Assembly: GCA_016124745.1 (NCBI GenBank)
Contig: WGNC01000018.1
Coordinates: 124,001 to 188,000, forward strand
Source of the DNA: Thiobacillus sp.
GTDB lineage: Bacteria > Pseudomonadota > Gammaproteobacteria > Burkholderiales > Thiobacillaceae
DNA length: 64,000 bases
Direction: 5' to 3'
Both the position numbers and the translations under genes were made by a program. Position 1 is the stretch's first letter, and every line of letters begins with the position of its first letter. Of this stretch, positions 17,426 through 36,131 are shown in pieces. The notes under the pieces were generated by a model. It saw only the letters and a list, made by a program, of their open reading frames with translations. It ran no database searches and was not told the DNA's origin.

Positions 17426-17439
17426 TTGATCTGCATCAA
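17426..17439. promoter_or_regulatory. FNR/ANR/DNR-type box upstream of napD
   Basis: Perfect dyad TTGAT-CTGC-ATCAA; CAAAAT hexamer at 17462 at class II spacing. Confidence 0.85.
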
Positions 17440-17496: not shown

Positions 17497-17808
17497 ATGA
17501 ATATATCTGGAATCCTTGTGACGGCCCTGCCCGAGCACATAGCGGAAGTGGCGCGCTCCCTGTCGAACCTGCCGGGGCTGGACGTGACTCAGATCCACGC
17601 CGCCAGCGGCAAGCTGGTGGTGGTGCAGGAGGCCGCCAGCGTGGGAGAGGAAGTCGAGGCCTTCAAGCGCATCCGCACCTTGCCGAAGGTCATCGCCGTC
17701 GACCTGGTGCAGCATTATTTCGAAGACGACAACGAGTTGATCGACGCCATTCCGGATGAACTGATTCGCCTGGAAGGCATTCACGTGCCCACTGCATTGC
17801 AAGACTAA
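17497..17808 (+). CDS. napD: Periplasmic nitrate reductase maturation chaperone NapD
   Basis: NISGILVTALPEHIAEVARSLSNLPGLDVTQIHAASGKLVVV; directly upstream of napA. Confidence 0.88.
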   Translation: MNISGILVTALPEHIAEVARSLSNLPGLDVTQIHAASGKLVVVQEAASVGEEVEAFKRIRTLPKVIAVDLVQHYFEDDNELIDAIPDELIRLEGIHVPTALQD

Positions 17809-17830
17809 GGCAAGACTAAGGCAAGACTAA
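17799..17830 (+). repeat. Three tandem copies of 11-bp GCAAGACTAAG across the napD stop codon
   Basis: gcaagactaag gcaagactaag gcaagactaa read directly at 17799, 17810, 17821. Confidence 0.95.
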
Positions 17831-17841
17831 AGGAGACCATC

Positions 17842-20595
17842 ATGCATCTGTCCCGTCGCGAATTCATCAAGTCCGGCATTGCCGCGAGCACAGCCGCCGC
17901 GGTCGGGTTGCCGATCTCGAAACTGGCCGAGGCCGCCTCAACCGAACTGGAAAAGGACTGGCAGTGGGACAAATCGGTTTGCCGCTTCTGCGGCGTCGGT
18001 TGCGGCATCATGGTGGCGACGCATAACGGCCGCATCGTTGCCACCAAGGGCGACCCTGCAGCGCCCGTCAACAAGGGGCTCAACTGCATCAAGGGCTATT
18101 TCAACGGCAAGATCATGTACGGCAAGGATCGCCTGACCCAGCCCTTGCTGCGCATGAAGGACGGCAAGTTCGACAAGAAGGGCCAGTTCGTTCCGGTGAC
18201 CTGGGAGCAGGCCTTCGACGAGATGGAACGCCAGTGGCGCAGGGTCTACGCCGAGAAGGGGCCGACCGGGATCGCCATCATCGGTTCCGGCCAGTACACC
18301 ATCCAGGAAGGCTATACAGCGGCCAAGCTCATGAAGGCGGGCATGCGCAGCAACAACCTGGACCCGAACGCGCGCAACTGCATGGCCTCGGCCGTCGCGG
18401 CCTTCATCCAGACCTTCGGCATCGACGAGCCCATGGGCAACTACGACGACATCGAGCATACGGACTCCATCGTGCTGTGGGGGGCCAACATGGCGGAATG
18501 CCATCCCATCCTGTGGTCACGCGTCGCCGACCGGCGTCTCACGAACAAGAATGTGCGAGTGGTCAACCTCTCCACCTACCACAACATGAGTTCGGACCTG
18601 GCCGATCTGGAGATTATCTTCAAGCCCAACACCGATCTCGCGATCCAGAACTACATCGCGCGTGAGATTCTCGCGCGCGATGCGGTGAACTGGGACTTCG
18701 TCAACAATCATTGCGTGTTTTCCACCGGTCCCTACGACATCGGTTACGGCTTGCGGCCGAACGACAAGTTCGCATCCCCCGCGGAAAAGGATATCCAGGC
18801 CAAGGAACTCAAGGTCACGCTCGACAAGAATGAAGCCATCGCCCAGCGCAGGCAGCCCGGCGAGGTCGTGGAGCAGAAGAACGCTGCCACGGCCGGCAAG
18901 CACTGGATGATCAATTTCGAGGCGTTCAAGCAAGGGGTGGAGCCCTACACCCTGGATTTCGTCGCCGAACTGGCCAAGGGCGACCCGGACGAGTCGCTCG
19001 ACAGCTTCAAGGCCAAGCTCAAGCAGCTGGCCGATCTCTACATCGACCCCAAGCGTAACGTGACGTCTTTCTGGACCATGGGCTTCAACCAGCACCAGCG
19101 CGGGACCTGGGTCAACGAGCAGGCCTACATGAATCATCTGCTGCTGGGCAAGATCTCCAAGCCCGGTAACAGTCCGTTCTCGCTGACCGGACAACCCTCC
19201 GCCTGCGGCACCGCGCGCGAGGTGGGCACCTTCGCCCATCGCCTGCCGGCCGACATGGTGGTGGACAATCTCAAGCACCGGGAAATGAGCGAGGGTATCT
19301 GGAAGCTTCCGGCCAAGACCTTGAACCCCAAGGTCGGCAGCCACATCGTCAAGATCATGCGCGATCTCGAAGACGGCAGCGTCAAGTGGTGCTGGGTGCA
19401 GGTGAACAACCCCTTCCAGCACAACGCCAATGCGAACCACTGGCTCAAGGCGGCGCGTGAAAATGACAATTTCATCATCGTCTCCGAAGCCTATCCCAGC
19501 ATCTCGGCCAAGGTGGCCGACCTCATTCTGCCGGTGGCGATGATCTACGAAAAATGGGGCGGCTACGGCAACGCCGAGCGCCGCACCCAGCTCTGGCGCC
19601 AGCAGGTGCCGCCGCCAGGACAGGCGCGTGCCGACGTCTGGCAGATGTTTGAATTCTCCAAGCGCATCAAGCTCAAGGATGTCTGGGGCGAGCAGAACAT
19701 ACCCGGACTGAAAGCGGAGGGCTTCCCCGACGGCAAGTTGCCCAGCGTGCTCGATGAGGCGGTGAGGATGGGCTATTCGCCCGACGACAGCCTGTACAAG
19801 GTGCTCTATGCCACGCCGGACAGCAAGAAGTTCGCCTGGCCCGATCCCGTGGCCAAGGGGCATGCCAACCATGTTGCCGAGCTGGTGGGCGAGAACTGGT
19901 TCCCGGAAAAAGCCTTGTTCGAGGAATACCGCAAATTCGGCATCGGACATGCCCATGATCTGGCGCCGTTCGATGTCTACCATTCCGACAGCGTGCGCGG
20001 GCTTAAATGGCCGGTGATCGAAAAGGATGGCAAGTGGGTCGAGACACCCTGGCGATTCAACGAGACATACGACACCTATTGCAGGAAAGGCTCGGGCATC
20101 GATTTCTACGGACCGGCGATGAAGGCGTTGCCGGCAGGCAACCTCGACAGCGTCACCGATCCCCAGGCCAAGCCCCTGGCCGGCAAGGCCAAGATTTTCT
20201 TCCGGCCCTATGCGGCGCCCGTCGAGCAGCCCGATGCAACGTACGATCTGTGGCTGTGCACGGGCCGTGTGCTGGAGCAATGGCACTCCGGCACCATGAC
20301 CCAGCGCGTGCCCGAACTGCACCGGGCAATGCCAACCGCGCAGCTCTGGCTGAACCCCGGCGAAGCCAAGAAACGCGGCCTCAAGCGCAACGACCTGGTG
20401 TGGATCGAATCCCGGCGTGGCAAGATCAAGGTCCGGGTGGAGACCGGCGGGCGCAACAGCGTGCCGAGCGGATACGCTTTTGTGCCCTGGTTCGACGAGG
20501 CGGTATTCATCAACCGGCTGACGCTCGACACCACCTGCCCGATTTCGAAAGAGACGGATTACAAGAAATGCGCGGTCAAGGTATACAAGGCCTGA
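17842..20595 (+). CDS. napA: Periplasmic nitrate reductase catalytic subunit NapA (long form, 917 aa)
   Basis: Tat motif SRREFIKSG; 4Fe-4[13 protein letters not shown]; Mo ligand region [40 protein letters not shown]. Confidence 0.95.
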
Positions 20596-20627
20596 GCAGC
20601 GCGGCGCGGGCATAGGGAACGGATGAC

Positions 20628-21410
20628 ATGCAGGCCAGTCGGCGCGAATTCCTGACCAAGGCGGCGCAGGGCGCCGCGGTGGCCGCGTGCGGCGGCCTGA
20701 TCTGGGCGCAGCTGCTGCGCCAGGAAGCGGCCGCCTCGGTGCTGGCGCTGCGTCCGCCGGGCGCATTGGCCGAGCGCGATTTCGCCGCCACCTGCATCAA
20801 GTGCGGCCAGTGCGTCCAGGCCTGCCCCTACGACACCCTGCGTCTGGCACGGGCGGAGGACGACGCGCCGATCGGCACGCCGCATTTCGTGCCGCGCGAC
20901 ATTCCCTGCTACATGTGCAGCGACATCCCCTGCCAGGTAGCGTGCCCGACCGGAGCGCTCTCGCCCGAGCTCAAGAACATCGCCAAGGCGCGCATGGGAC
21001 TTGCGGTGATCGACACCGAATCCTGCCTGTCCTGGCAGGGACTGCGCTGCGAGGTGTGCTACCGCGTCTGCCCGGTCAAGGGCGAGGCCATCACGATCGA
21101 GAACCGTTCGCGGGTAGTCAGCAAGCATGCCCTGTTCGTTCCCCACGTTCATTCGCAGGCGTGCACCGGCTGCGGCATGTGTGAGGATGCCTGCCCCACC
21201 GAAAAGGCGGCGATCCGGGTGCTCAATCCCGCCCTGGTGCAGGGCAGGATCGGCAGCCACTACCGTCTGGGCTGGCTGTCGGACACGCCCATCACGCAGG
21301 ACTTCAAGCCACCCGAGGCGCCGCCTGCAGTGGGCCCGGCCGTCACCGAGCCGTCCGCGCCGAAAACCGCGCCGGGCATGGACGTACTCAATCAGGGGAT
21401 CGATCCATGA
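20628..21410 (+). CDS. napG: Ferredoxin-type protein NapG
   Basis: Tat motif SRREFLTK and several CxxCxxCxxxCP clusters (CIKCGQCVQACP, CTGCGMCEDACP). Confidence 0.92.
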   Translation: MQASRREFLTKAAQGAAVAACGGLIWAQLLRQEAAASVLALRPPGALAERDFAATCIKCGQCVQACPYDTLRLARAEDDAPIGTPHFVPRDIPCYMCSDIPCQVACPTGALSPELKNIAKARMGLAVIDTESCLSWQGLRCEVCYRVCPVKGEAITIENRSRVVSKHALFVPHVHSQACTGCGMCEDACPTEKAAIRVLNPALVQGRIGSHYRLGWLSDTPITQDFKPPEAPPAVGPAVTEPSAPKTAPGMDVLNQGIDP

Positions 21411-22339
21411 GCGCGATACCGCTGTCCACGCGCCGGGCAGCGCGCCTGTACACCCCGCCCGCCACGTTGGCCGGCAAGCTGCACGACGCGGGCTACCTGA
21501 TCCTGCGCCGGATCACGCAGGTCGGCGTGCTGCTGCTGTTCTTCGGCACGCTGCATTGGGGCTGGCAGGTCATGGGTCAGCCCGTGCTGCGCGGCAACCT
21601 GTCCGCCTCCGAATTGCTCGGTGTCATTCCCCTGGCCGATCCGTTCGCCGTGCTGCAGCAGCTCGCCAGCGGCCATGCCCTGCAGGCCACGGTGCTGTTG
21701 GGCGCTGCCATTCTGCTGGTTTTCTATGCCCTGGCAGGACGGGTGTTTTGCAGTTGGGTATGCCCGATGAACATGGTGACCGATCTGGCCGGCTGGCTGC
21801 GCGGCAAATTCGACCTCAATAACCTGTTTCGCCTGCAGCGCGGCACCCGCTACTGGGTGATGGGCATGGCGCTCGTCCTGTCCGCGCTGATGGGCGTGGC
21901 AGCATTCGAGTGGGTGAGCCCGATTTCCATGCTGCACCGCGAAATCATTTTCGGCGTCGGGATGGGGCTGAGCGCGGCGCTCGGCATTTTCATCTTCGAC
22001 CTGCTGATCCTGAAGCATGGCTGGTGCGGCCATCTGTGTCCGCTCGGCGCATTTTATGGATTGCTCGGCAACGCAGCCCTGTTGCGGGTGCGCTTCGATG
22101 ACAGCAGTTGCACCCATTGCGGCGAGTGCGTCCGCGTGTGTCCCGAGCCGCAGGTGCTGAATTTCAAAAAGGCTGCGGAAAGCGGCATGGTCACCGCGGG
22201 CGCGTGCACCAATTGTGCGCGCTGCGTACCCATTTGTCCGGAAGACAGCCTGGATTTCGCCTTGCGCTGGGACGCCCACCCCAGTCCCGGCGCTTCCCAA
22301 CCCCGTACCCCGAACTCAACCGTGAGGAACACACCATGA
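21407..22339 (+). CDS. napH: Quinol dehydrogenase ferredoxin subunit NapH
   Basis: Membrane protein with CSWVCPMNMVTD, CGHLCPLGAFYGL and C-terminal CTHCGECVRVCP/CTNCARCVPICP; ATGA overlaps with napG and napB. Confidence 0.92.
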   Translation: MSAIPLSTRRAARLYTPPATLAGKLHDAGYLILRRITQVGVLLLFFGTLHWGWQVMGQPVLRGNLSASELLGVIPLADPFAVLQQLASGHALQATVLLGAAILLVFYALAGRVFCSWVCPMNMVTDLAGWLRGKFDLNNLFRLQRGTRYWVMGMALVLSALMGVAAFEWVSPISMLHREIIFGVGMGLSAALGIFIFDLLILKHGWCGHLCPLGAFYGLLGNAALLRVRFDDSSCTHCGECVRVCPEPQVLNFKKAAESGMVTAGACTNCARCVPICPEDSLDFALRWDAHPSPGASQPRTPNSTVRNTP

Positions 22340-22803
22340 AAACGACCACGAAGGCAATGCTGGCGGCCGCTGCGCTGACCCTGAGCCATGGCGCGCTGCA
22401 GGCTGCGGAGATGGCCCAGACGGACAGCCAGATGGGGCTTTCCAAAACCAGCGTGTACGACGATCCGAGCCCGGATGTCTTCCAGTATCCGCCGACCGAT
22501 CCGGGCGAGGCCAAGGCCTTGCCGCGCGCTTACAGCGGAGCGCCGCCGCAGATTCCCCACAGTGTCGACGATTTTCTGCCGATCACCGCACAAAAGAACG
22601 AATGCAACGGCTGTCACAACAAGCCGGCCAGGATAGGCAAGAACGTGGCCAAAGGCACGCCGCCGCCGATGCCGGAAAGCCATTATCACAAGGCGGACAC
22701 CGGCAAGCTGGAATTCTCCGACTCGCGCTACATCTGCGTGCAGTGCCACACGCCGCAGGCCAACGTGAAGGACCTGGTCGGCAATACCTTCACGCCCAAA
22801 TAG
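22336..22803 (+). CDS. napB: Diheme cytochrome c subunit NapB
   Basis: CNGCH and CVQCH motifs, IPHSVDDFLPITAQKNECNGCH typical NapB context. Confidence 0.92.
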   Translation: MKTTTKAMLAAAALTLSHGALQAAEMAQTDSQMGLSKTSVYDDPSPDVFQYPPTDPGEAKALPRAYSGAPPQIPHSVDDFLPITAQKNECNGCHNKPARIGKNVAKGTPPPMPESHYHKADTGKLEFSDSRYICVQCHTPQANVKDLVGNTFTPK

Positions 22804-22928: not shown

Positions 22929-22942
22929 TTGACCTGGATCAA
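22929..22942. promoter_or_regulatory. FNR/DNR-type box upstream of decaheme cytochrome gene
   Basis: TTGAC-CTGG-ATCAA; TAGCAT -10-like hexamer at 22965-22970 at class II spacing. Confidence 0.75.
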
Positions 22943-23092
22943 GAAAATTAAGAGACCGTACCCCTAGCATGGCAACCAGCGTCAACTGGTAGATGAATAC
23001 CAGTCTGGATCGTCGATAAAAAAGCATTAATGGCAGTCATTGGAAACTCATCGCGGGGGGATACATGAGATACGCAGAAAAAAGGAAGCATC

Positions 23093-24136
23093 ATGAGAGG
23101 GAAGCCGTCCGGCCTGGTCGTGCGACTGGCCGGGGCGGTGCTGGCCCTGGGTCTGGGTCTCGCGTGGCATCTCCCCGCCAGCGCCCAGCAGTCAGCCGAC
23201 AATGTTGCCAGTTCCGGTCCGACCATGGCCGGCCCCGGCAAACTGGGGCCGGGCGACACGGTGTTGCGCGGCGACGCGAAGTGCACAGGCTGCCACGACG
23301 ACAGCGACAATCCTGCGCCAACCATGCTCGAGCTCCGCCCGTGGGTGGTCTCCATCGCCAAGACCAAGCATGGCACCGTGGCCGACGGCCGCACGCCCAC
23401 CTGCTCCAACTGCCACGGCGAGAGCGAAGCCCACATGAAGAAGCCGGAGGCAGGAAGCAATCGTGCTGCACCCGACCGTGTGTTCAAGCAGACCACGCCC
23501 GCTGAAGTCCAAAACGAGCCCTGCACCACCTGCCACAAAGGCGGCAACCGCATGTTCTGGGCAAGCAGCACCCACCAATCGCGTGGCGTCGCCTGTGTCA
23601 ACTGTCACGACATCCACAACAATGGCCACGACAAGGCCCGTGACCGCCACACCCAGATAGAAGTCTGCTTCACCTGCCACAAGGACAAGCGCGCCGAGAT
23701 CAACCGGCCGTCCCACCATCCTGTGAAAGAGGGCAAGGTCATCTGTTCCGACTGCCATAACCCGCATGGATCGGCCGGCCCCAAGCAACTCAAGCGCTCG
23801 ACCGTGAACGAGACGTGCTACCAGTGCCACATGGAGAAGCGCGGTCCCTTCCTGCATAACCACCAGCCGGTCAACGAGGACTGCTCGATCTGCCACAACG
23901 CCCATGGCACGACGATCGCCAACCTGCTGAAGTCGCGTCCGCCCTTCCTGTGCCAGTCATGTCACAACGACATTTCTACCGGTCACCCGGGCCAGCTCGG
24001 CCGCCTGCCAGCCGGACCCACGACGTCGACCAGCCAGCTCGGCACGGTTGGAAGGGGTTGTCTGAACTGCCATACCAGCATCCATGGCGACAACAACCCG
24101 CAGGGCTCGACGGCAACCCGTCGGTTCTTCCGCTAA
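23093..24136 (+). CDS. Decaheme c-type cytochrome, MtrA/MtoA/PioA (DmsE) family
   Basis: Signal peptide plus exactly 10 CxxCH motifs (CTGCH, CSNCH, CTTCH, CVNCH, CFTCH, CSDCH, CYQCH, CSICH, CQSCH, CLNCH); followed by an MtrB-type porin. Confidence 0.9.
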   Translation: MRGKPSGLVVRLAGAVLALGLGLAWHLPASAQQSADNVASSGPTMAGPGKLGPGDTVLRGDAKCTGCHDDSDNPAPTMLELRPWVVSIAKTKHGTVADGRTPTCSNCHGESEAHMKKPEAGSNRAAPDRVFKQTTPAEVQNEPCTTCHKGGNRMFWASSTHQSRGVACVNCHDIHNNGHDKARDRHTQIEVCFTCHKDKRAEINRPSHHPVKEGKVICSDCHNPHGSAGPKQLKRSTVNETCYQCHMEKRGPFLHNHQPVNEDCSICHNAHGTTIANLLKSRPPFLCQSCHNDISTGHPGQLGRLPAGPTTSTSQLGTVGRGCLNCHTSIHGDNNPQGSTATRRFFR

Positions 24137-24158
24137 TTCGGTGGCAAAGGAGACAATC

Positions 24159-26261
24159 ATGAGAGTGAATCATCAATTCCCGCTCACCGCCCTGGCCGCC
24201 GCTGTGCTGGTCGTGTGCGCACAGGCTGCCGTGGCTGCGGAAGACGAAAGCATCGCGCAATACACCAAGCCTGACAGTTCCATCACGGTCGGGGTCGGCT
24301 ACTGGACCGATCCTCGCCCGCATGAAGGCATGTATGACGGCATGTGGGACAGCGGCTTCTACGGCAGCCTCGACGCCAGCGTGATCCGGCGTGACGACGC
24401 GACCGGCACCTGGACCACGCTCACCGCCTACAACCTGGGTCTGGACACCTACGAGGTCGGGGCGTCTTACGAGAAGCAGGGTGACTGGGGCGTCGGCCTG
24501 CAGTATTCGCAAATCCCGCGCAAGAACCCTTACGAAATCAACAGCGGCCTGCAGGGCATCGGCACGGAAACGCAGACGATCACGCCGGTCGTGCCGGGAA
24601 ACGGCAACGATAACGCGCTCGAGATCAAGCGCGATCTGGCCACGCTGACCATGTTCAAGCGCTTCTCGCCGTCCCTGGAATTCCGTGCAACCTACAAGAA
24701 CGAGCAGAAGGACGGCAACCGCCAGTGGGGGGTGCGTTCCTATCCCAATTACGGCAGCACTGGCGGCAGCTACCCGGCCTATGTGACGGAACCCATCGAC
24801 AGCACCACGCAGCAGCTCGACATGCTGGTCAACTACAACATCGGCAAGCTGCAGCTGACCGCGGGGTATTACGGCAGCTGGTACGGCAACGACAATAACT
24901 ACCTGGAAGTGATCGGCGCGCCGACCGGCAATAATTCGCCCGGCTACACCGACATGTCGCTGCCACCCGACAACCAGGCCCATCAGGGCTACCTGCAGGG
25001 CAATTATGCGTTCACGCCCACGACCCTGGGCACGTTCAAGGTGGCCTACACCCACGCCACGCAGAATCAGGCCTTCATGCCCACGAACGGCAACGGCGTG
25101 CCAAGCTGGGCACCGCTGCCCACCGTCGGCAACAGCCTGAACGGGGAGGTGAACACGACCGAGGCGCTGCTCGGCCTGACGGCGCGCCCGATGGAGAACC
25201 TGTCCGTGTTGGCCAGCCTCCGCTACTGGGACAAGCAGGATGAAACCCCGGTCCGCGTCGATGCCCAGAGCTCGAACGGCAATACGCTCTATCACAACAA
25301 CCCCTTCAGTGAAACCGTCTACTCCGGCAAGCTCGAAGGCACCTACCGTCTGCAGGGCGGCTTCAACCTCACGGCCGGCGTCGATTACGCGCACGAGGAC
25401 CGGGAGATTTCGTCACTGATCGTTCCGACGACCGAACTGTTCGTGCCGTACCGCAATGAACTCGATCAGACGACCTTCCGGCTCGACCTGCGGCGCGCCC
25501 TCTCCGAGCAGCTGAACGGCTTCATCGGTTATTCGTACAGCACGCGCGACGGTTCCAACTACATTCCCGTCAATACCTCGGTGGATTCGGCAACGATCAC
25601 GCCGTTCTATATCGCCGACCGCGATCGCGATACCTGGAAGGTGGGACTGGACTGGACCCCGATGGACCGCATGGGCCTGCAGTTCAACTATGCCTACTCG
25701 CTGGACAAATACCCGACGGATGGCGTCCGCATCGATGGCATCAGAAAGGGCACGGCGCAGATGTTCTCGATCGATGGCGACTATGCGCTGAACGACCAGT
25801 GGAAGGCCAAGGGCTGGTATACACATGACACCAACAAGATCGACCAGGAGGGCCCGCTCGCGCCTGCGCCCAACACCTGGTACGCCGACCTCGACAACAA
25901 GGGTGACACCGTCGGTCTCGGCCTGGAGGGCGAGGCGACGGACAAGATCAATGTCGGGGCCAACTTCGAATGGGTCCGCACCGTCAGCAGCTATGACCAG
26001 ACAGGCCTTGCCGCAGGCGTCGAGCCGCTGCAGGACATCAGTACCTATCTCACCCGCATAGGGCTGTTCGGTACCTATGATCTGATGAAGAACGGTTCCA
26101 TCCGGGTCGACCTGATCCACGAGATCTGGAAGACCAACGACTGGACCTGGACCTTCCAGGATGGCAGCCCGTTCAGCTACGCCAACGACGGCACCATGGT
26201 TTCGCAGGACTACGACCAGCCAAGCACCTTCTACGGCGTGAGTTACACCTACAAGTTCTGA
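24159..26261 (+). CDS. Decaheme-associated outer membrane beta-barrel protein, MtrB/PioB family
   Basis: Signal peptide, about 700 aa of alternating aromatic beta strands, C-terminal ...SYTYKF; adjacent to decaheme cytochrome. Confidence 0.85.
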   Translation: MRVNHQFPLTALAAAVLVVCAQAAVAAEDESIAQYTKPDSSITVGVGYWTDPRPHEGMYDGMWDSGFYGSLDASVIRRDDATGTWTTLTAYNLGLDTYEVGASYEKQGDWGVGLQYSQIPRKNPYEINSGLQGIGTETQTITPVVPGNGNDNALEIKRDLATLTMFKRFSPSLEFRATYKNEQKDGNRQWGVRSYPNYGSTGGSYPAYVTEPIDSTTQQLDMLVNYNIGKLQLTAGYYGSWYGNDNNYLEVIGAPTGNNSPGYTDMSLPPDNQAHQGYLQGNYAFTPTTLGTFKVAYTHATQNQAFMPTNGNGVPSWAPLPTVGNSLNGEVNTTEALLGLTARPMENLSVLASLRYWDKQDETPVRVDAQSSNGNTLYHNNPFSETVYSGKLEGTYRLQGGFNLTAGVDYAHEDREISSLIVPTTELFVPYRNELDQTTFRLDLRRALSEQLNGFIGYSYSTRDGSNYIPVNTSVDSATITPFYIADRDRDTWKVGLDWTPMDRMGLQFNYAYSLDKYPTDGVRIDGIRKGTAQMFSIDGDYALNDQWKAKGWYTHDTNKIDQEGPLAPAPNTWYADLDNKGDTVGLGLEGEATDKINVGANFEWVRTVSSYDQTGLAAGVEPLQDISTYLTRIGLFGTYDLMKNGSIRVDLIHEIWKTNDWTWTFQDGSPFSYANDGTMVSQDYDQPSTFYGVSYTYKF

Positions 26262-26420: not shown

Positions 26421-27308
26421 ATGCGGTATTTGACACGCCTTTCCACTTCTCTTTTCCTGTTCGCAAGCCTGCCCGTCCTGGCGCAGCAGGTCGAGGCACC
26501 TGCTGCGGACGCTCCGGTCGCTGCGCCCCAGGCCGTCGAGGCTGTCACGCCGGCGCCGGCAGCGGCGCCGCCGGCAGTGCCGGCCGCGGCCGCACCGGCC
26601 GCGGCGCCTCCGGTCGTGCAGCCGGTCGCGGTTGTTCCGGTTGCGGCCCCTGCGGCCATGGTCAACCCCTACATGCAATGGGTGCCTGTCCCCGCCATGC
26701 AGAGCCTGCCCTTCGGCGGCTTGCCCATCCCCTTGATCGGGCAACCCCAGGCGAGCATGGGCAAGCAGAAGCCCTACACCATGCGTCCGCCCATCAATCC
26801 GGAAGTCAAGCGGCAGATGATGCAGATGATGATGCCCATCATGAACAACATGTTCCGCATGTCCATGCCGGATGCGATGAACTGGATGGCCCACAAGATC
26901 AAGGTCAAGCCGGGCATCAAGTTCGACGAAGTGATCGAATCGATGAACTTGCGCGCCAACCAGCTCAACTTCAAGCACGTGGGCGAGAACCTGATGTACA
27001 AGGACTTCCAGGCCGTGCTGAACGACAAGGATGCGCCACGCATCGAGGTGCACAGCTACTGCGACATCGCCGTCGGCCGTGAGCTCCTGAAGATCAGCCC
27101 GGAATTCGTCGTCTTCCTGCCCTGCCGCATCGCGGTCATGGAGGACGGCGACAAGAACATCTGGGTGCTGATGATCGACTGGAACATGGACTGGGTGGCC
27201 GGCTACAGCCAGCAGATGGGGATTACACCGGAACTGGCCAAGGGCGCCATGGAACTGCGTGACAAGATGGAGAACATCATGCAGGCGGGGGCCAACGGGG
27301 ACATATGA
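26421..27308 (+). CDS. DUF302 domain protein with signal peptide, Ala/Pro-rich linker and Met-rich segment
   Basis: MRYLTRLSTSLFLFASLPVLAQQ signal; C-terminal SYCDIAVGRELLKISPEFVVFLPCRIAVMED resembles DUF302. Confidence 0.7.
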   Translation: MRYLTRLSTSLFLFASLPVLAQQVEAPAADAPVAAPQAVEAVTPAPAAAPPAVPAAAAPAAAPPVVQPVAVVPVAAPAAMVNPYMQWVPVPAMQSLPFGGLPIPLIGQPQASMGKQKPYTMRPPINPEVKRQMMQMMMPIMNNMFRMSMPDAMNWMAHKIKVKPGIKFDEVIESMNLRANQLNFKHVGENLMYKDFQAVLNDKDAPRIEVHSYCDIAVGRELLKISPEFVVFLPCRIAVMEDGDKNIWVLMIDWNMDWVAGYSQQMGITPELAKGAMELRDKMENIMQAGANGDI

Positions 27309-27384: not shown

Positions 27385-27398
27385 TTGACTTGCATCAA
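27385..27398. promoter_or_regulatory. FNR/DNR-type box upstream of fccA-like gene
   Basis: TTGAC-TTGC-ATCAA, 79 bp before the ATG. Confidence 0.75.
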
Positions 27399-27477
27399 GG
27401 AAACCTGTGCGCCAGTCGCGTAACGTCCGGCGCATAGGAAATTCAACCAAACCAACAACAATCTGGAGGGGAACACC

Positions 27478-28047
27478 ATGCGCTATCGTGTCGTATTCGG
27501 AATGATTCTGGCGGGCTTGCTGGGCTCGGCGTATGCCGAGGACAAAACCGAGGCTCTCGCCATTACCTGCAACAACTGCCATGGTGTCGATGGCGTTTCC
27601 GTCGGGCCGAACATGCCATCCATCGGCGGCCTGCCCGAGTCCTATCTCAAGAATATCCTCCTGGAATGGAAAGCCGGCACGCGCTATTCCGCCACCATGG
27701 GCCGCCTGGTCAAGGGCTATTCGGACGAGCAGATCGCAGCATTGGCGGCCTACTTCTCCAAGAAGCCGTGGACCCCGGCGGCACAAACCACCGATCCCAA
27801 GCTCGTGGCCCTCGGCAAGAAAGTGACCGCGCGGTGCGCAGGTTGCCATGGCGAAACCGGAAATGCCGGCGATGGCGACACACCGAACCTCAACGGCCAG
27901 TGGGCCGAATACCTGGAGCTGGAAGCGCTGAAGTATCGCGACGACGCGGTGGCGATGCCGAACAAGCAGATGCGCAAGGCCGCCCAGAAACTGAGCGAGG
28001 AAGACGTCAAGGCCGTCGCCGAGTTCTACGCCAGCCAGAAGAAATAA
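27478..28047 (+). CDS. fccA: Diheme cytochrome c, sulfide dehydrogenase cytochrome subunit (FccA/SoxE-like)
   Basis: Signal peptide, CNNCHG and CAGCHG; directly upstream of FccB-like flavoprotein. Confidence 0.8.
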   Translation: MRYRVVFGMILAGLLGSAYAEDKTEALAITCNNCHGVDGVSVGPNMPSIGGLPESYLKNILLEWKAGTRYSATMGRLVKGYSDEQIAALAAYFSKKPWTPAAQTTDPKLVALGKKVTARCAGCHGETGNAGDGDTPNLNGQWAEYLELEALKYRDDAVAMPNKQMRKAAQKLSEEDVKAVAEFYASQKK

Positions 28048-28057
28048 GGAGAACAGC

Positions 28058-29359
28058 ATGAGCCAATTTACCCGTCGTGATTTTATCAAGGCCCTTGCTG
28101 CTGCCTATCCCGCTGCAGTGCTGACGATCCCCAAGGCACATGCCGCGTCCAAGGCGCGCGTGGTGGTGGTGGGCGGAGGCTTTGGCGGCGCGACTGCCGC
28201 CCGCTATCTGAAAATGATGTCGCCGACGCTCGACGTGACGCTGGTCGAGAAGAACAAGATTTACACCTCCTGCCCCCTGTCCAATGAGGTGATCTCCGGT
28301 TTCGGTGAGCTGAAGGACCTGCAGACTGGCTATGACGGCCTGAAGAAACACGGCATCAATGTCGTGTTCGACGAGGTGGCGGCAATCGATCCGGCCAAGA
28401 AGTCGGTCGCGCTGAAAAGCGGCACGACGCTTGCCTACGACGCCCTGGTGGTGTCCCCCGGCATCAGTTTCAACTACGGTGGCGTCGAGGGTTACACGCA
28501 GGAGTTGGCCGATACGGTTCTGCCACATGCCTACAAGGCGGGTCCGCAAACCCTGGTGCTGCGGAAGCAGTTGATGGACATGCCGGACGGCGGCACCTTC
28601 ATCATCACCGTGCCCAAAGGGCCATTCCGCTGTCCGCCCGGCCCTTACGAGCGCGCATCGCAGGTGGCGGCCTACCTCATGGCTAATGGCAAGACCAAGT
28701 CCAAGGTGGTGATTCTTGACGCCAATGATTCCTTCTCCAAGAAAGGCTTGTTCGAGCAGGCATGGAAGAAGTTCTACCCTGACATGATCAAGTGGGTATC
28801 CGGCGCAAACGACGGCAACGTAATCAAGATCGATCCCAAGACCAGGATGGCCTACACCAATTTTGGCGAACACAAGGCCGACGTGCTGAACGTGATTCCG
28901 CCGCATCATGCCGGCAATGTCGCGGTGTCCGCCGGTCTCGCCAACGACAAGGGCTGGTGCCCGGTCGATATGCTGACCATGGAGTCGTCCCTGCACAAAG
29001 ACATCTGGGTGGTGGGCGACTCCTGCGTGCACGGCGAACTGCCGGTCTACGCGGCGCCGAAGTCGGCGCACATGGCCGTCACCCAGGCCAAGGTGGCAGC
29101 AGGTGCGATCATCGCCAAGCTGAACGGCCAGCCCGCGCCCGAGCCTTTCTTCGTCAACACCTGCTACAGCATTGCCGCCCCGGACTGGGGGTTCTCGGTG
29201 GTGCACGTCTATCGGGTTGAAGACGGCAAGCTGATGTACGTCAAGGATGCCGGCGGCATTTCACCGATCGAAACGCCGGCCCTTGCCGTCCAGCGCAAGT
29301 TGGAAGCCAGATACGCCGAAGGCTGGCTGAGAAACATCATGGCGGACGCATTCGCCTGA
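28058..29359 (+). CDS. fccB: Sulfide dehydrogenase flavoprotein subunit (FccB/SoxF-like)
   Basis: Tat-type TRRDFIKALAAAY, dinucleotide fold VVVVGGGFGGATAARYLK, KNKIYTSCPLSNEVISG. Confidence 0.88.
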   Translation: MSQFTRRDFIKALAAAYPAAVLTIPKAHAASKARVVVVGGGFGGATAARYLKMMSPTLDVTLVEKNKIYTSCPLSNEVISGFGELKDLQTGYDGLKKHGINVVFDEVAAIDPAKKSVALKSGTTLAYDALVVSPGISFNYGGVEGYTQELADTVLPHAYKAGPQTLVLRKQLMDMPDGGTFIITVPKGPFRCPPGPYERASQVAAYLMANGKTKSKVVILDANDSFSKKGLFEQAWKKFYPDMIKWVSGANDGNVIKIDPKTRMAYTNFGEHKADVLNVIPPHHAGNVAVSAGLANDKGWCPVDMLTMESSLHKDIWVVGDSCVHGELPVYAAPKSAHMAVTQAKVAAGAIIAKLNGQPAPEPFFVNTCYSIAAPDWGFSVVHVYRVEDGKLMYVKDAGGISPIETPALAVQRKLEARYAEGWLRNIMADAFA

Positions 29360-29404
29360 GGCCGTAGCGAAGTCGAAACCTGACAAACCAAGGAGGAGAA
29401 AGCC

Positions 29405-31129
29405 ATGAAAATAGCCAACATTTTCCGTAACTGGCTTGCGGGGTGCGTCCTGGCCCTGTTTGCCATCGGGGCGCAGGCTGCTGCGGCACCCGCTGCGCCG
29501 GCGGACAAGCCTGTCGATGTCCAGAAGTGCTATTCCTGCCACGACAACATCGAGGAGTTCCACGCCAAGGGCAAGCACGCCAAGGTGAACTGCGTGAGCT
29601 GCCACTCGGGCACGGCGGAGCATCTGGCCAGCAAGGACAAGAAGGCGGTCAAGCCGGTCACCAACATGGACCACCGTGCCTGCGCGGTCTGTCACGAGGA
29701 CCAGTACAAGTCCTTCGTGGCGATGAACTATGAATCGCCTGCGCGGCTGGAAAAGGCCACGTTCAAGGGCCGTTCGCCGCTGTTCGACAAGCTCATGGAG
29801 GGCTACGGCTTCACCAAGGAGCACGGCGAGCCGCGCTCCCATCCCTTCATGCTGGTTGACCAGTGGGTGGTCGACCGTGGTTTTGGCGGCCGCTTCCAGT
29901 TCAAGGACTGGACTTACAACAGCAAGCCCGAGGCCGCTGCCAACAGCGCCTGGGACGTGATCATCGACTCGGAACCCACGACGGCTGAACAGAAGAAGTT
30001 CATGCGGCAGACGGTGACGGCGGTGAACCCGGTTTGCATGAACTGCAAGACGCAGGACCACATCCTGAACTGGGCCTTCATGGGGGACAAGAACCCTGCC
30101 GCCAAATGGGATCGCACTTCCAAGCCGGTGGAGTTCGCGCGTGCCGTGAAGCACCCGCTCAACTGCTTCATGTGCCACGATCCGCACTCGTCCGGCCCGC
30201 GCGTCGTGCGTGATGCGCTGATTCAGGCGGTCGTGGATCGCAATGAAGGCACCTATCCGATGGATGCGGAGAAGAGCAAGAAGACGACCATGACCAAGGT
30301 CACCTTCGACCGCGATGGCAAGCCTTTCCGTGCCATCGGTACGTTGAACCGGGCTGACTCCAACCTGATGTGCGCCCAGTGCCACGTCGAATATAACTGT
30401 GGCCCCGGCTTCGACTGCGCTGGCCCGAACAACACGGTGAAGATGACCCCCGATCCGGACCAGAAATATATTTCCATGGCGGACCCGCGCACCAACCTGT
30501 TCACGTGGACGAATGTGTTCGGCTACAAGGACAAGATGGTGGGCCAGTTCAAGTTCAAGGACTTCAAGCATGCCAGCACGGGTGCCCTGTTGGCCAAGAT
30601 CCAGCATCCTGAAATGGAGACCTACTGGGGTTCCAAGCACGAGCGCGCAGGCGTGCAGTGCAAGGATTGCCACATGGGCAAGGCCAAGAATGCGAAGGGC
30701 AAGACATTCACCTCGCACCAGCAGAAGTCGCCCAAGTTCATGCTGAAGGAGACCTGCCTGAAGTGCCACACCGAGTGGACCGAGCAGGACGCCAAATACA
30801 ACATGGAGGCGATCCAGAACTACACGCGCGGCAAGATGGCCAAGGCCGAATTCTGGATCGCAGCCCTGATCGACGCGATCATGAAGGCGAAGGATGCCGG
30901 CGTGTCACCGGATGTGCTGAACAAGGCCTACGACTATCAGTACGATGCAACCCTGTACTGGGAGTGGTGGACCGCCGAGAACTCGGACGGCTTCCACAAC
31001 CCGCAAAACGCGCGCGAGTCGCTGACCCGCTCGGTGGATGCCTCCCAGGAAGGCATCGCGATGCTGAAGAAGGCGATGGGTGAAATGAAGGTGAGCGCAG
31101 CGCCGGCGGCGGCACCCGAGAAAAAATAG
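29405..31129 (+). CDS. Octaheme c-type cytochrome nitrite reductase (ONR/TvNiR-like)
   Basis: Seven CxxCH plus one CMNCK at heme 4; NrfA-like CAQCHVEY, QHPEMETYWGSKHERAGVQCKDCHM, FTSHQQKSP. Confidence 0.85.
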   Translation: MKIANIFRNWLAGCVLALFAIGAQAAAAPAAPADKPVDVQKCYSCHDNIEEFHAKGKHAKVNCVSCHSGTAEHLASKDKKAVKPVTNMDHRACAVCHEDQYKSFVAMNYESPARLEKATFKGRSPLFDKLMEGYGFTKEHGEPRSHPFMLVDQWVVDRGFGGRFQFKDWTYNSKPEAAANSAWDVIIDSEPTTAEQKKFMRQTVTAVNPVCMNCKTQDHILNWAFMGDKNPAAKWDRTSKPVEFARAVKHPLNCFMCHDPHSSGPRVVRDALIQAVVDRNEGTYPMDAEKSKKTTMTKVTFDRDGKPFRAIGTLNRADSNLMCAQCHVEYNCGPGFDCAGPNNTVKMTPDPDQKYISMADPRTNLFTWTNVFGYKDKMVGQFKFKDFKHASTGALLAKIQHPEMETYWGSKHERAGVQCKDCHMGKAKNAKGKTFTSHQQKSPKFMLKETCLKCHTEWTEQDAKYNMEAIQNYTRGKMAKAEFWIAALIDAIMKAKDAGVSPDVLNKAYDYQYDATLYWEWWTAENSDGFHNPQNARESLTRSVDASQEGIAMLKKAMGEMKVSAAPAAAPEKK

Positions 31130-31165
31130 GCCGACGTCCTGACTGAAGCCTAGTGTCCTCCGGTA

Positions 31166-31204
31166 CCAGGGGAATCGGCGAGAGCCGCATTCCCCTGTTT
31201 TTTT
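31166..31204 (+). terminator. Rho-independent terminator after the octaheme reductase gene
   Basis: CAGGGGAATCGGC-gaga-GCCGcATTCCCCTG followed by a seven-T run. Confidence 0.85.
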
Positions 31205-31331: not shown

Positions 31332-31949
31332 ATGTTGTCTGCCCATGATCTTGCCTGCGAACGCGGCGATCGACTGTTATTCCGGAATCTGGGTTTTGAA
31401 CTGCAAAGTGGCGAAGCTTTGATGGTCCGCGGCGGCAATGGCCACGGCAAGACCAGCCTGCTGCGTATCCTATGCGGTCTGTCCACGCCTGCTGCGGGGG
31501 AGGTGCGCTGGCGCAACCAGCCGATCAGACAGGCGCACGAGCAGTTTGGCCGTGAGATGGCCTATATCGGCCACAACAACGGTATCAAGGATGATCTCAC
31601 CCCAATCGAGAACCTGCGTCTGGCGGCCGCGCTGGGCGGCCGCTCACTGGATCAGGCGCAGGCGACGCATGCATTGGGTCAGGTGGGCCTGGCGCGCTGC
31701 CTGGATATTCCCGCTCGCGTGCTGTCCTTCGGCCAGCGCCGGCGCGTAGCGCTGGCCGGCCTGATGACGGCGGGCGCCCTGCTGTGGATCCTCGACGAGC
31801 CACTGACCGGTCTCGATGTGCATGGCGTGGCCATGGTGGAGCAACTGATCCGCGATCACGTCGTGGCGGGCGGGCTGGCGATCATGACCACCCATCAGGC
31901 GCTCGCGCTGGATGGGGTGACGCCCAAAACCCTGTCGGTCGGAGACTAG
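31332..31949 (+). CDS. ccmA: Heme exporter ATP-binding protein CcmA
   Basis: Walker A GGNGHGKTSLLRILCGL, signature LSFGQRRRVALAGL, followed by ccmB. Confidence 0.95.
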   Translation: MLSAHDLACERGDRLLFRNLGFELQSGEALMVRGGNGHGKTSLLRILCGLSTPAAGEVRWRNQPIRQAHEQFGREMAYIGHNNGIKDDLTPIENLRLAAALGGRSLDQAQATHALGQVGLARCLDIPARVLSFGQRRRVALAGLMTAGALLWILDEPLTGLDVHGVAMVEQLIRDHVVAGGLAIMTTHQALALDGVTPKTLSVGD

Positions 31950-32034
31950 GCCTAGTGCGACAAGCTTCGATGTTGCTGCAATCGCAGCCGGTCGGCTGCA
32001 AGGTGGCTGCGCATGCGCCCGGGCATGGGATTCG

Positions 32035-32703
32035 ATGCTGAGATTCCTGTTCACCGTCATTCGCCGCGATATTATGCTGGCGGCGCGCCGCCGCGGCGAC
32101 TGGCTGACCGCGCAATTCTTCTTCGTCATGGTGGTCAGCATGTTTCCGCTGGGCGTGGGGCCCGAGCCCAGCATGTTGCGCACCATCGGCCCCGGCGTGG
32201 TGTGGGTCGCGGCGCTGCTGGCCTCGCTGCTGTCGCTGGGCAGGCTGTTCGCCGACGATTTTCGTGACGGCACCCTGGAACAAATGCTGCTCTCCCCCTA
32301 TCCCAATACATTGCTGGCCTTGGGAAAGGCGATCGCGCACTGGCTCATCAACGGCATTCCGTTGCTGCTGATCGCGCCGGTGCTGGGGATCCAGTTCAAC
32401 CTGCCGCCCGAGGCCCTGTGGATCCTGGTGCTGTCGCTGGCGATCGGGACGCCCATCCTGTCGCTGCTGGGCAGCATCGGGGCCGCCCTGACGCTGGGCC
32501 TGCGCGGCGGCGGCGTGCTGGTCACCCTGCTGATCCTGCCGCTGTACGTGCCGGCCCTGATTTTTGGAGCGGGCGCGGTGGAAGGTGTACTCTCCGGCAC
32601 CGGTGCGGAAGCGCATCTTTCGCTGCTCGGGGCGTTTTTGATGATGTCGTTGTTGCTGGCCCCCTGGGTGAGTGCGATGGCGCTTAAAGTTTCTGTGGAG
32701 TAA
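32035..32703 (+). CDS. ccmB: Heme exporter protein CcmB
   Basis: Polytopic membrane protein LFADDFRDGTLEQMLLSPYPNTLLALGKAIAHWL; ccm context. Confidence 0.95.
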   Translation: MLRFLFTVIRRDIMLAARRRGDWLTAQFFFVMVVSMFPLGVGPEPSMLRTIGPGVVWVAALLASLLSLGRLFADDFRDGTLEQMLLSPYPNTLLALGKAIAHWLINGIPLLLIAPVLGIQFNLPPEALWILVLSLAIGTPILSLLGSIGAALTLGLRGGGVLVTLLILPLYVPALIFGAGAVEGVLSGTGAEAHLSLLGAFLMMSLLLAPWVSAMALKVSVE

Positions 32704-32707
32704 GCAT

Positions 32708-33442
32708 TTGAATCTGTACTACTACGCTTCACCGGCGACCTTTTATCCCCTGGCGGGCAGGCTGATCCCCTGGTTCGCGGCCCTGGCAGCCATACTGACG
32801 GCAGTCGGCCTTTACATCAGCTTCTTCATGGCGCCCACCGACTTCCAGCAGGGCGAGGGCTACCGCATCATCTTCATTCACGTTCCGGCAGCCTGGATGT
32901 CGATGTTCATCTACGTCGTCATGGCCTTCTGGTCGGCCATCGGGCTGGCCTGGAATACCCGCCTCTCATTCGTGATGGCCAGGTCGCTTGCACCCACCGG
33001 CGCCATGTTCACCTTCGTGGCCCTGTGGACCGGCGCGTTCTGGGGCAAGCCGATGTGGGGCGCATGGTGGGTGTGGGATGCGCGGCTGACGTCGGAGCTG
33101 ATCCTGTTTTTCCTTTATGTGGGCGTGATGGCGCTGCAGGCGGCGATCGACGACCCGCGCCGCTCCGACCGTGCCGGTGCGCTGCTGAACCTGGTCGGCG
33201 TGATCAACGTGCCGATCATCTATTTCTCGGTCAAATGGTGGAACACCCTGCACCAGGGCTCCTCGGTCAGCCTCACGCGCGCGCCGTCGATGGCGCACAT
33301 CATGTTGTGGGGGATGCTGATCATGGCGCTCGCCGCCTGGATGTATTCCATCGCGGTGGCACTGGTGCGTGCGCGTTCGCTGATCATCGAGCGGGAACGG
33401 CAAACCGACTGGGTCCGCTCCCTGCTGGAGGAGAAACCATGA
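32708..33442 (+). CDS. ccmC: Heme exporter protein CcmC (TTG start likely)
   Basis: IIFIHVPAAWMSMFIYVVMAF and WGKPMWGAWWVWDARLTSELILFFLY heme-handling motif. Confidence 0.95.
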   Translation: MNLYYYASPATFYPLAGRLIPWFAALAAILTAVGLYISFFMAPTDFQQGEGYRIIFIHVPAAWMSMFIYVVMAFWSAIGLAWNTRLSFVMARSLAPTGAMFTFVALWTGAFWGKPMWGAWWVWDARLTSELILFFLYVGVMALQAAIDDPRRSDRAGALLNLVGVINVPIIYFSVKWWNTLHQGSSVSLTRAPSMAHIMLWGMLIMALAAWMYSIAVALVRARSLIIERERQTDWVRSLLEEKP

Positions 33443-34154: not shown

Positions 34155-36131
34155 ATGATCCCAGAACTCGGCCACTTTGCCCTTATCGTTGCATTGTTGC
34201 TGGCGCTCACGCAGGCCATCCTGCCGCTCTATGGCGCGCAACGCGGCAACCTCACGCTGATGGGGGTGGCGCGGCCCGCCGCGCAGGGACAGTTCGTGTT
34301 CGTTGCCCTCGCATTCGGCTGTCTTGCCTGGTCGTTCCTCAACAACGATTTCTCGGTGCTGAACGTGGCGAAGAACTCGTTCTCGCAATTGCCCGAGGTC
34401 TATCGCTTTACCGCCACCTGGGGTTCGCACGAAGGCTCGATGCTGCTGTGGGTGCTGATCCTCGCGTTCTGGAGCACGGCGGTTTCGGTCTTCTCGCGCC
34501 ATCTGCCGGAAGACATGGCGGCGCGCGTGATCGGTGTCATGGGTCTGATCTCGGTCGGCTTCCTGGCCTTTTTGCTGACCACATCCAACCCGTTCGTGCG
34601 CCTGCTGCCGGCCGCGATGGACGGCAATGACATGAACCCGCTGCTGCAGGACTGGGGCATGATCATCCATCCGCCGATGCTGTACATGGGCTATGTCGGT
34701 TTCGCCGTGGCCTTCGCTTTCGCCATTGCGGCGCTGCTGTCCGGCAAGATGGATGTGGCCTGGGCGCGCTGGTCGCGGCCCTGGACCACGGTCGCCTGGG
34801 CCTTCCTGACCTTCGGCATCATGCTCGGCAGCTGGTGGGCCTATCGTGAACTGGGCTGGGGTGGCTGGTGGTTCTGGGATCCGACCGAAAACGCCTCGTT
34901 CATGCCCTGGCTCGCCGGGACTGCACTGATCCATTCGCTGGCCGTGACCGAAAAACGCGGCGCATTCAAGGCCTGGACCGTGCTGCTGGCCTTGATCGCA
35001 TTCTCGCTGTCGCTGCTCGGCACCTTCCTGGTGCGTTCCGGCGTGCTGTCCTCGGTGCATGCCTTCGCAACCGATCCGGCACGCGGCGCTTTCATCCTGG
35101 GCTTCCTCGCGGTGGTGATCGGTGGCTCGCTCGTGCTCTACGCCTGGCGCGCGCCCAAGATGGTCACCGGCAGCGGCTTCACCTGGTTCTCGCGCGAGTC
35201 GCTGCTGCTCGCCAACAATGTGATCCTGGTCGCGGCGCTCGGGTCGGTGCTGCTCGGCACGCTGTATCCCCTGCTGATGGACGCCATGGGGCTGGGCAAG
35301 ATTTCCGTCGGCCCGCCTTACTTCAATTCGGTGTTCGTGCCGGTCATGGCGCCGGCGCTGTTCCTGATGGCGATCGGGCCGCTCGCGCGCTGGAAGGAAG
35401 CCAGCCTGCCGGACGTGATCACGCGGCTGAAGTGGGCGCTGGGGGTGGCGCTGGCCGTGGGCCTGCTGGTGCCATTGGGACTCGGTGGCTTCAAGCCCTG
35501 GGCGGCCCTGGGATTCTTTCTCGCGGCCTGGATCGCCCTTTCGGTGCTGGCCGGTTTTGTCGACCGGCTCAAGCATGGCCAGGGCAGCCTGGTGCATAAG
35601 CTGTCGACGCTCCCGCGCGGGTTCTGGGGTATGCAACTGGCCCACTTCGGCATGGCGGTCGGCATCGCCGGCATTGCCGTGGTGGCCAACTACCAGACCG
35701 AGCGCGACGTGCGCATGGAGTTGAACAGCTACGCCGAACTGGCGGGCTATACCTTCACCTTCCGTGGCACCACCGAGCACGACGGTCCCAATTACCGCGC
35801 CGCCCGCGGCACGCTGGAGGTCAGCCGTGACGGCAGGCAGGTGGCCACGCTGCATCCGGAAAAGCGCGTCTACAACGCCTCCGGCATGGCGATGACCGAG
35901 GCCGACATCCACCCGAACGTCTACCGCGACATCTATGTCGCCATGGGCGAGCAACTGGATGACGGCGGCGCCTGGACCGTGCGGCTGTTCTACAAGCCGT
36001 TCATCAACTGGCTGTGGTTCGGCGCCCTGTTCATGGTGTTTGGCGGTTTCCTGGCCGCCTCGGACAAGCGTTACCGCATCGCGCTCAGGCGCAGCGAAAT
36101 GCCGAAGCACGTCGCGGCGCAGGGGGCCTGA
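34155..36131 (+). CDS. ccmF: Heme lyase subunit CcmF
   Basis: ATWGSHEGSMLLWVLIL, WGGWWFWDPTENASFMPWL. Confidence 0.96.
   Translation: MIPELGHFALIVALLLALTQAILPLYGAQRGNLTLMGVARPAAQGQFVFVALAFGCLAWSFLNNDFSVLNVAKNSFSQLPEVYRFTATWGSHEGSMLLWVLILAFWSTAVSVFSRHLPEDMAARVIGVMGLISVGFLAFLLTTSNPFVRLLPAAMDGNDMNPLLQDWGMIIHPPMLYMGYVGFAVAFAFAIAALLSGKMDVAWARWSRPWTTVAWAFLTFGIMLGSWWAYRELGWGGWWFWDPTENASFMPWLAGTALIHSLAVTEKRGAFKAWTVLLALIAFSLSLLGTFLVRSGVLSSVHAFATDPARGAFILGFLAVVIGGSLVLYAWRAPKMVTGSGFTWFSRESLLLANNVILVAALGSVLLGTLYPLLMDAMGLGKISVGPPYFNSVFVPVMAPALFLMAIGPLARWKEASLPDVITRLKWALGVALAVGLLVPLGLGGFKPWAALGFFLAAWIALSVLAGFVDRLKHGQGSLVHKLSTLPRGFWGMQLAHFGMAVGIAGIAVVANYQTERDVRMELNSYAELAGYTFTFRGTTEHDGPNYRAARGTLEVSRDGRQVATLHPEKRVYNASGMAMTEADIHPNVYRDIYVAMGEQLDDGGAWTVRLFYKPFINWLWFGALFMVFGGFLAASDKRYRIALRRSEMPKHVAAQGA

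Follow-up and report, generated by a model that had tools for sequence, protein, structure and literature searches.

A Conserved fccA–fccB–onr Gene Unit in Thiobacillus Suggests Sulfide as an Electron Source for Octaheme Nitrite Reductase

The fccA–fccB–onr Locus

The window, a 64,000-nt stretch of DNA from a Thiobacillus sp., contains three adjacent plus-strand genes, fccA (27478–28047), fccB (28058–29359) and onr (29405–31129), separated by 10 nt and 45 nt, respectively, in agreement with the initial annotation. fccA encodes the 189-residue diheme cytochrome subunit of a flavocytochrome c sulfide dehydrogenase, a diheme relative of 1fcd_C and 3vrd_A, and its position next to fccB is the arrangement that marks the pair as flavocytochrome c. 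The flavoprotein subunit FccB has a Tat-type N-terminus, matches 1fcd_A at 2e-120, and carries the FCSD_central and FCSD-flav_bind domains above the Pfam cut-off. It keeps Cys42, Cys161 and Cys337 (1FCD numbering). In loci where fccAB and onr are linked (see below), the FAD-linking Cys42 is present in 33 of 34 FccBs (one row is gapped) and both members of the redox pair, Cys161 and Cys337, in 34 of 34, while 28 of 30 FccA reading frames show two hemes (one reads three, and one truncated frame reads one). Judged by these residues, FccAB is expected to oxidise sulfide.

The product of onr is an octaheme ammonia-forming nitrite reductase (ONR), which matches TvNiR (PDB 2zo5) over residues 35–559 at 5e-207 and contains eight heme motifs, with a CXXCK motif (CMNCK) at heme 4. 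The TvNiR residues Arg131, Lys188, Tyr303, Cys305, Gln360 and His361 are all present and are invariant in 82 of 82 ONRs, i.e., the window protein and 81 relatives; they include, in a Tyr-x-Cys motif, the two residues for the Tyr303–Cys305 bond. The score against the NCBIfam NrfA equivalog (111 bits) stays below its cut-off of 595. Conversion of nitrite to ammonium is the predicted activity of the window ONR.

An FNR/ANR-type box (TTGACTTGCATCAA, i.e., TTGAC-TTGC-ATCAA) is found at 27385–27398 on the plus strand, its centre 86 nt 5′ of fccA and with one mismatch to the FNR consensus. The window holds seven FNR-type sites against 0.95 expected, and none of 100 shuffles reached this number. On the 3′ side of onr, an intrinsic terminator (31167–31204, plus strand) combines a GC stem with a GAGA loop (31167–31197) and a T7 run (31198–31204). 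It was missed by a consensus scanner because its stem has a bulge, and its fold z-score is only −1.9 over 91 nt. The single control site ahead of the three genes and the strong terminator behind them, both proposed in the initial annotation, could thus be located. The 45-nt fccB–onr spacer contains no terminator, no FNR box and no T-run, so that the internal terminator named there as an argument against a common unit is absent from it. In the linked loci of other genomes, poly-T runs occur in some fccB–onr spacers, and neither an FNR box nor a terminator was found in any spacer scanned. A separate promoter for onr was set aside on this ground; the scan covered FNR boxes and terminators, and promoters of other types may still exist in the spacers. 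Given the short gaps, a single control site ahead of the genes and a single terminator behind them, with no internal terminator found, fccA, fccB and onr are likely to be read on one transcript.

Gene Neighbourhood and Genome Context

Several redox genes surround the unit, all on the plus strand. The periplasmic nitrate reductase genes napD-napA-napG-napH-napB (17497–22803) follow an exact FNR box (17426–17439), and a dmsE-type decaheme cytochrome gene with an mtrB/pioB porin gene (23093–26261) follows an FNR-type box at 22929–22942. Because such a site precedes napD, dmsE and fccA, the nap genes, the porin–cytochrome pair and the fcc–onr unit look co-regulated. A DUF302-domain protein gene (26421–27308) lies ahead of the fccA box, and similar genes occur near other fccAB copies. 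Downstream, ccmABC (31341–33442) start a cytochrome c maturation cluster that runs on to ccmF (34155–36131); we take these gene names from family knowledge and conserved gene order, rather than from a profile search. A ccm cluster lies 3′ of onr in most linked loci too.

The same neighbourhood bears on another use of the pair, raised in the initial annotation, in which ONR would make sulfide from sulfite in the cell and FccAB would oxidise it again. TvNiR has a side activity on sulfite in vitro, according to PMC5433712. However, the active-site residues of the window ONR are identical to those of the nitrite-reducing TvNiR, and a closed sulfide–sulfite loop would gain nothing. Heme 4 also has a CXXCK motif, unlike MccA-type sulfite reductases with their extended one. 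Nothing specific speaks for sulfite as the substrate of the pair; nitrite is favoured by the conserved active site for it, the nearby nap genes and the common FNR-type boxes, and we regard sulfur cycling as very improbable.

In a genome search for nitrite reductases that covered PF02335 (NrfA/ONR-type), NirS and NirK, the window ONR was the only convincing PF02335 protein, with one further weak match, and neither NirS nor NirK was found. dsrAB are present together with dsrE, dsrF, dsrH and dsrC, a set that we take to be of the oxidative type. The presence of nap and dsr genes, the single convincing ONR and the lack of detected NirS and NirK indicate that the organism is likely a sulfur oxidiser that sends periplasmic nitrite to ammonium. 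Five FCSD proteins of the genome pass the Pfam cut-off, the window copy and four others.

Conservation of the Gene Order

A scan of species genomes yielded 80 ONR loci. In 33 of them, fccAB shares its strand with onr; in some of these, the contig breaks off inside fccB or ahead of fccA. An artefactual assembly join was rejected as the origin of the window arrangement because the same order recurs in these 33 other loci. They belong to Betaproteobacteria, among them Thiobacillus, Sulfuricella, Hydrogenophilales and Gallionellaceae, and include two gammaproteobacterial cases (the MAGs L035 and L048). In the ONR tree, fccAB is present in 30 of 30 rows with upstream sequence within a 32-row clade, the other two rows ending at a contig edge. 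When up to one mismatch was allowed, an FNR-type box was detected within 250 nt of fccA in 26 of 31 loci, compared to 1.2% of 5,895 control windows, and exact boxes in 16 of 31 compared to 0.4%; the loci are related, and these counts are therefore not independent. Most of the conserved boxes are located 93–116 nt ahead of the fccA start. napH-napB directly precede fccA in three loci (L014, L015 and L034).

The fccB–onr spacer measures 35–192 nt in 32 of the 33 linked loci. In the remaining one, a Gallionellaceae MAG (L018:3198–7727), it extends to 4,885 nt, as 4.9 kb of unrelated genes separate fccB from onr; the frame 5′ of fccA includes a masked stretch in this locus. Several spacers (L006, L007, L009–L012, L020, L024, L029–L031, L081 and others) contain an ORF of about ten codons (e.g., MTDARPTTTDV or MKDARETTDV) after a strong AAGGAGG site, with a GC-rich potential stem-loop on its 3′ side. 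This ORF, which is absent from the 45-nt spacer of the window, is possibly a leader peptide or a processing site.

One FccB Clade with Changing Partners

FccBs linked to ONR fall into a single clade (SH-aLRT 99). Apart from it stands the divergent FccB of L063, a Thioalkalivibrio MAG in which onr is accompanied by an oppositely oriented fccAB of a different, out-of-clade FccB lineage. The clade is not confined to ONR loci. In the genome of the window, another contig encodes a twin of the window FccB with 88% identity, and the twin fccAB precedes the gene of a Tat molybdopterin oxidoreductase, with ferredoxin, TorD-like and DUF302 genes alongside. The nearest families of this molybdoenzyme are PhsA and ArrA, and its scores lie below their cut-offs. 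At the head of this cluster (L119:5801–15676, contig C23), the twin fccAB is joined by a Crp-type regulator.

Eighteen trio-bearing genomes were searched, and ten further in-clade FccB copies were examined. Two in-clade fccAB pairs (L172 and L180) precede the same molybdoenzyme as the twin, which brings this arrangement to three cases. Two others (L177 and L179, minus strand) lie directly 5′ of napA, as assigned by the NapA equivalog; L179 adds napB and then a pentaheme cytochrome, and neither napC nor napGH was seen among the listed genes at these two loci. The fccA–fccB–napA loci could possibly encode a sulfide-fed periplasmic nitrate reductase. Five copies (L173, L175, L176, L178 and L181) adjoin a nonaheme cytochrome whose b561-like match is weak, and one copy precedes a pentaheme cytochrome gene. 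In a 90-row FccB tree, all further copies belong to the clade (41 rows, SH-aLRT 100), and the partner label changes three times for the molybdoenzyme and twice for Nap, on separate branches. The idea of a strictly ONR-specific clade was rejected, given its NapA-, molybdoenzyme- and cytochrome-linked members.

Among 19 readable out-of-clade fccAB loci, mostly top scorers of a class sample rather than a random draw, none has an ONR, a NapA or a PhsA/ArrA-like molybdoenzyme next door. One of them (L202) has DmsE–MtrB genes on the 5′ side. In several, a four-heme protein with a NapC/NirT-like N-terminus is encoded 5′ of fccAB, and such a protein is found near the out-of-clade diheme fccAB of L186, L189, L191, L198 and L199. 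It could possibly serve as a quinone-linked exit for FccAB electrons. The nonaheme cytochrome, of about 650 residues with a b561-like membrane part, has homologues with 42–44% identity in several ONR loci without fccAB, and in three of these (L054, L055 and L073) the homologue is encoded directly 5′ of onr. The pattern looks as if one electron-input module, the nonaheme cytochrome or FccAB, had replaced the other at ONR loci.

These data bear on whether FccAB and ONR are dedicated partners at all. Both enzymes would be needed under anoxic, sulfidic and nitrate-rich conditions, and shared regulation alone might have brought them together. FccAB would then feed a common pool of cytochrome c, and ONR would draw its electrons from there or from the quinol pool, with no dedicated contact between the two. 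The sequence distances of FccB and ONR correlate weakly (r = 0.47, versus 0.70 for ONR and CcmB), so that pairwise co-evolution is not above background in this comparison; the nonaheme cytochrome with its b561-like membrane part near some fcc-less ONRs and the four other FCSD copies in the genome also agree with pool-mediated transfer. However, one FccB lineage and not others was recruited, the gene order is nearly invariant, and the same clade recurs beside other reductases, which renders shared regulation alone rather unlikely. The weak distance correlation fits swapping of partners and lends no support to tight pairwise co-evolution. In-clade FccAB is read here as a swappable electron-input module that would carry electrons from sulfide to different reductases. 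The genetic tie between sulfide oxidation and nitrite reduction proposed in the initial annotation is considerably strengthened by its recurrence in 33 further loci, the retained FNR box and the single FccB clade, and it widens to NapA and the molybdoenzyme.

Proposed Electron Route and Its Purpose

We consider it probable that fccA–fccB–onr is an FNR/ANR-controlled unit for sulfide-driven reduction of nitrite to ammonium in which FccAB acts as a swappable module. The gene identities, their order and conservation, the FNR-type box, the catalytic residues, the FccB clade and its alternative partners were computed directly. From these we infer that the genes share one transcript, that the clade acts on sulfide, that electrons travel from FccA to ONR and that the cell forms ammonium. 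In the proposed sequence, NapAB would form nitrite in the periplasm, and FccB would use its FAD and redox cysteines to oxidise sulfide. From diheme FccA, the electrons would then pass to ONR, either directly or via a small cytochrome, and ONR would reduce nitrite to ammonium at heme 4. Within the clade, FccAB would provide the same electron input beside various periplasmic redox enzymes. The combined sequence evidence suggests sulfide as the electron source for ammonium formation from nitrite at these loci. The hemes of known FccA proteins have potentials of about 0 to +30 mV and those of NrfA and ONR are mostly lower, which could make a direct transfer sluggish.

A wholly periplasmic route would consume protons outside and, by itself, conserve no energy. 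This proton bookkeeping would suit a detoxification valve, which would clear the periplasm of sulfide and nitrite and conserve no energy while growth on sulfide proceeds via other routes, such as oxidative Dsr and quinone-linked steps. The oxidative dsr genes of the genome fit such a valve, and the electron route would be compatible with the one proposed above, only the purpose being different. The FNR-type boxes common to the fcc–onr unit and napDAGHB, and the position of the unit directly behind nap genes in L014, L015 and L034, look respiratory instead, and a pure valve is considered unlikely. Within the sulfide-driven reading, the unit may serve sulfide and nitrite removal as well as the supply of sulfur to Dsr.

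A broader proposal is more tentative and, in our estimate, somewhat less likely to hold than to fail: that the FccB clade docks to exchangeable reductases and thereby forms direct, quinone-independent periplasmic sulfide:acceptor systems, with ONR for nitrite, NapA for nitrate and a further molybdoenzyme. Nitrite would then oxidise sulfide and be turned into ammonium wholly outside the cytoplasmic membrane.

Relation to Known Systems

Both enzyme families are already known. TvNiR of Thioalkalivibrio nitratireducens (PDB 2zo5) shares with the window ONR full-length homology, eight hemes, the CXXCK motif at heme 4 and the six active-site residues. However, TvNiR, the ONR that has been characterised, belongs to the Thioalkalivibrio type, whose loci stand in the ONR tree without the fcc operon: no same-strand fccAB was seen by onr in L002, L060, L063 and L080, of which L060 and L080 end at the contig start. 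FccAB of Allochromatium vinosum (PDB 1fcd) likewise combines a diheme FccA with an FAD-binding FccB carrying Cys42, Cys161 and Cys337. The window clade differs from it as a separate branch with clade-specific residues and by its position next to a reductase gene, and almost every member has a loop inserted behind the GD[SA]C motif.

NrfHA and NrfABCD catalyse the same six-electron reduction of nitrite, and the available text of a 2025 review describes their control by the Crp-FNR family, lists NrfH, CymA and NrfBCD as three quinol-linked redox partners of NrfA and gives no partner for octaheme enzymes (PMC12285233). Unlike NrfA, the window enzyme is octaheme, and its electrons would come from a soluble sulfide dehydrogenase and not from the quinol-linked NrfH, CymA or NrfBCD. 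A literature search that covered mainly open-access papers retrieved none describing the pairing of fccAB with onr, and an earlier mention is possible.

The fccAB–onr operon names a concrete candidate electron donor for octaheme nitrite reductase. If the proposal holds, it would provide a defined genetic basis for sulfide-driven reduction of nitrate to ammonium in Thiobacillus-like sulfur oxidisers, by which nitrogen would be kept in the system rather than lost as N2, and onr with in-clade fccAB would be a sequence marker for sulfide-driven ammonium formation in metagenomes. Repeated partner swaps beside one FccAB clade would exemplify modular periplasmic electron transfer. An outer-membrane electron conduit of the DmsE–MtrB type may likewise pair with FccAB: its genes lie upstream of fccAB in the window (22929–26261), and the order DmsE-MtrB-FccA-FccB is found in another genome (L202), with an out-of-clade FccB.
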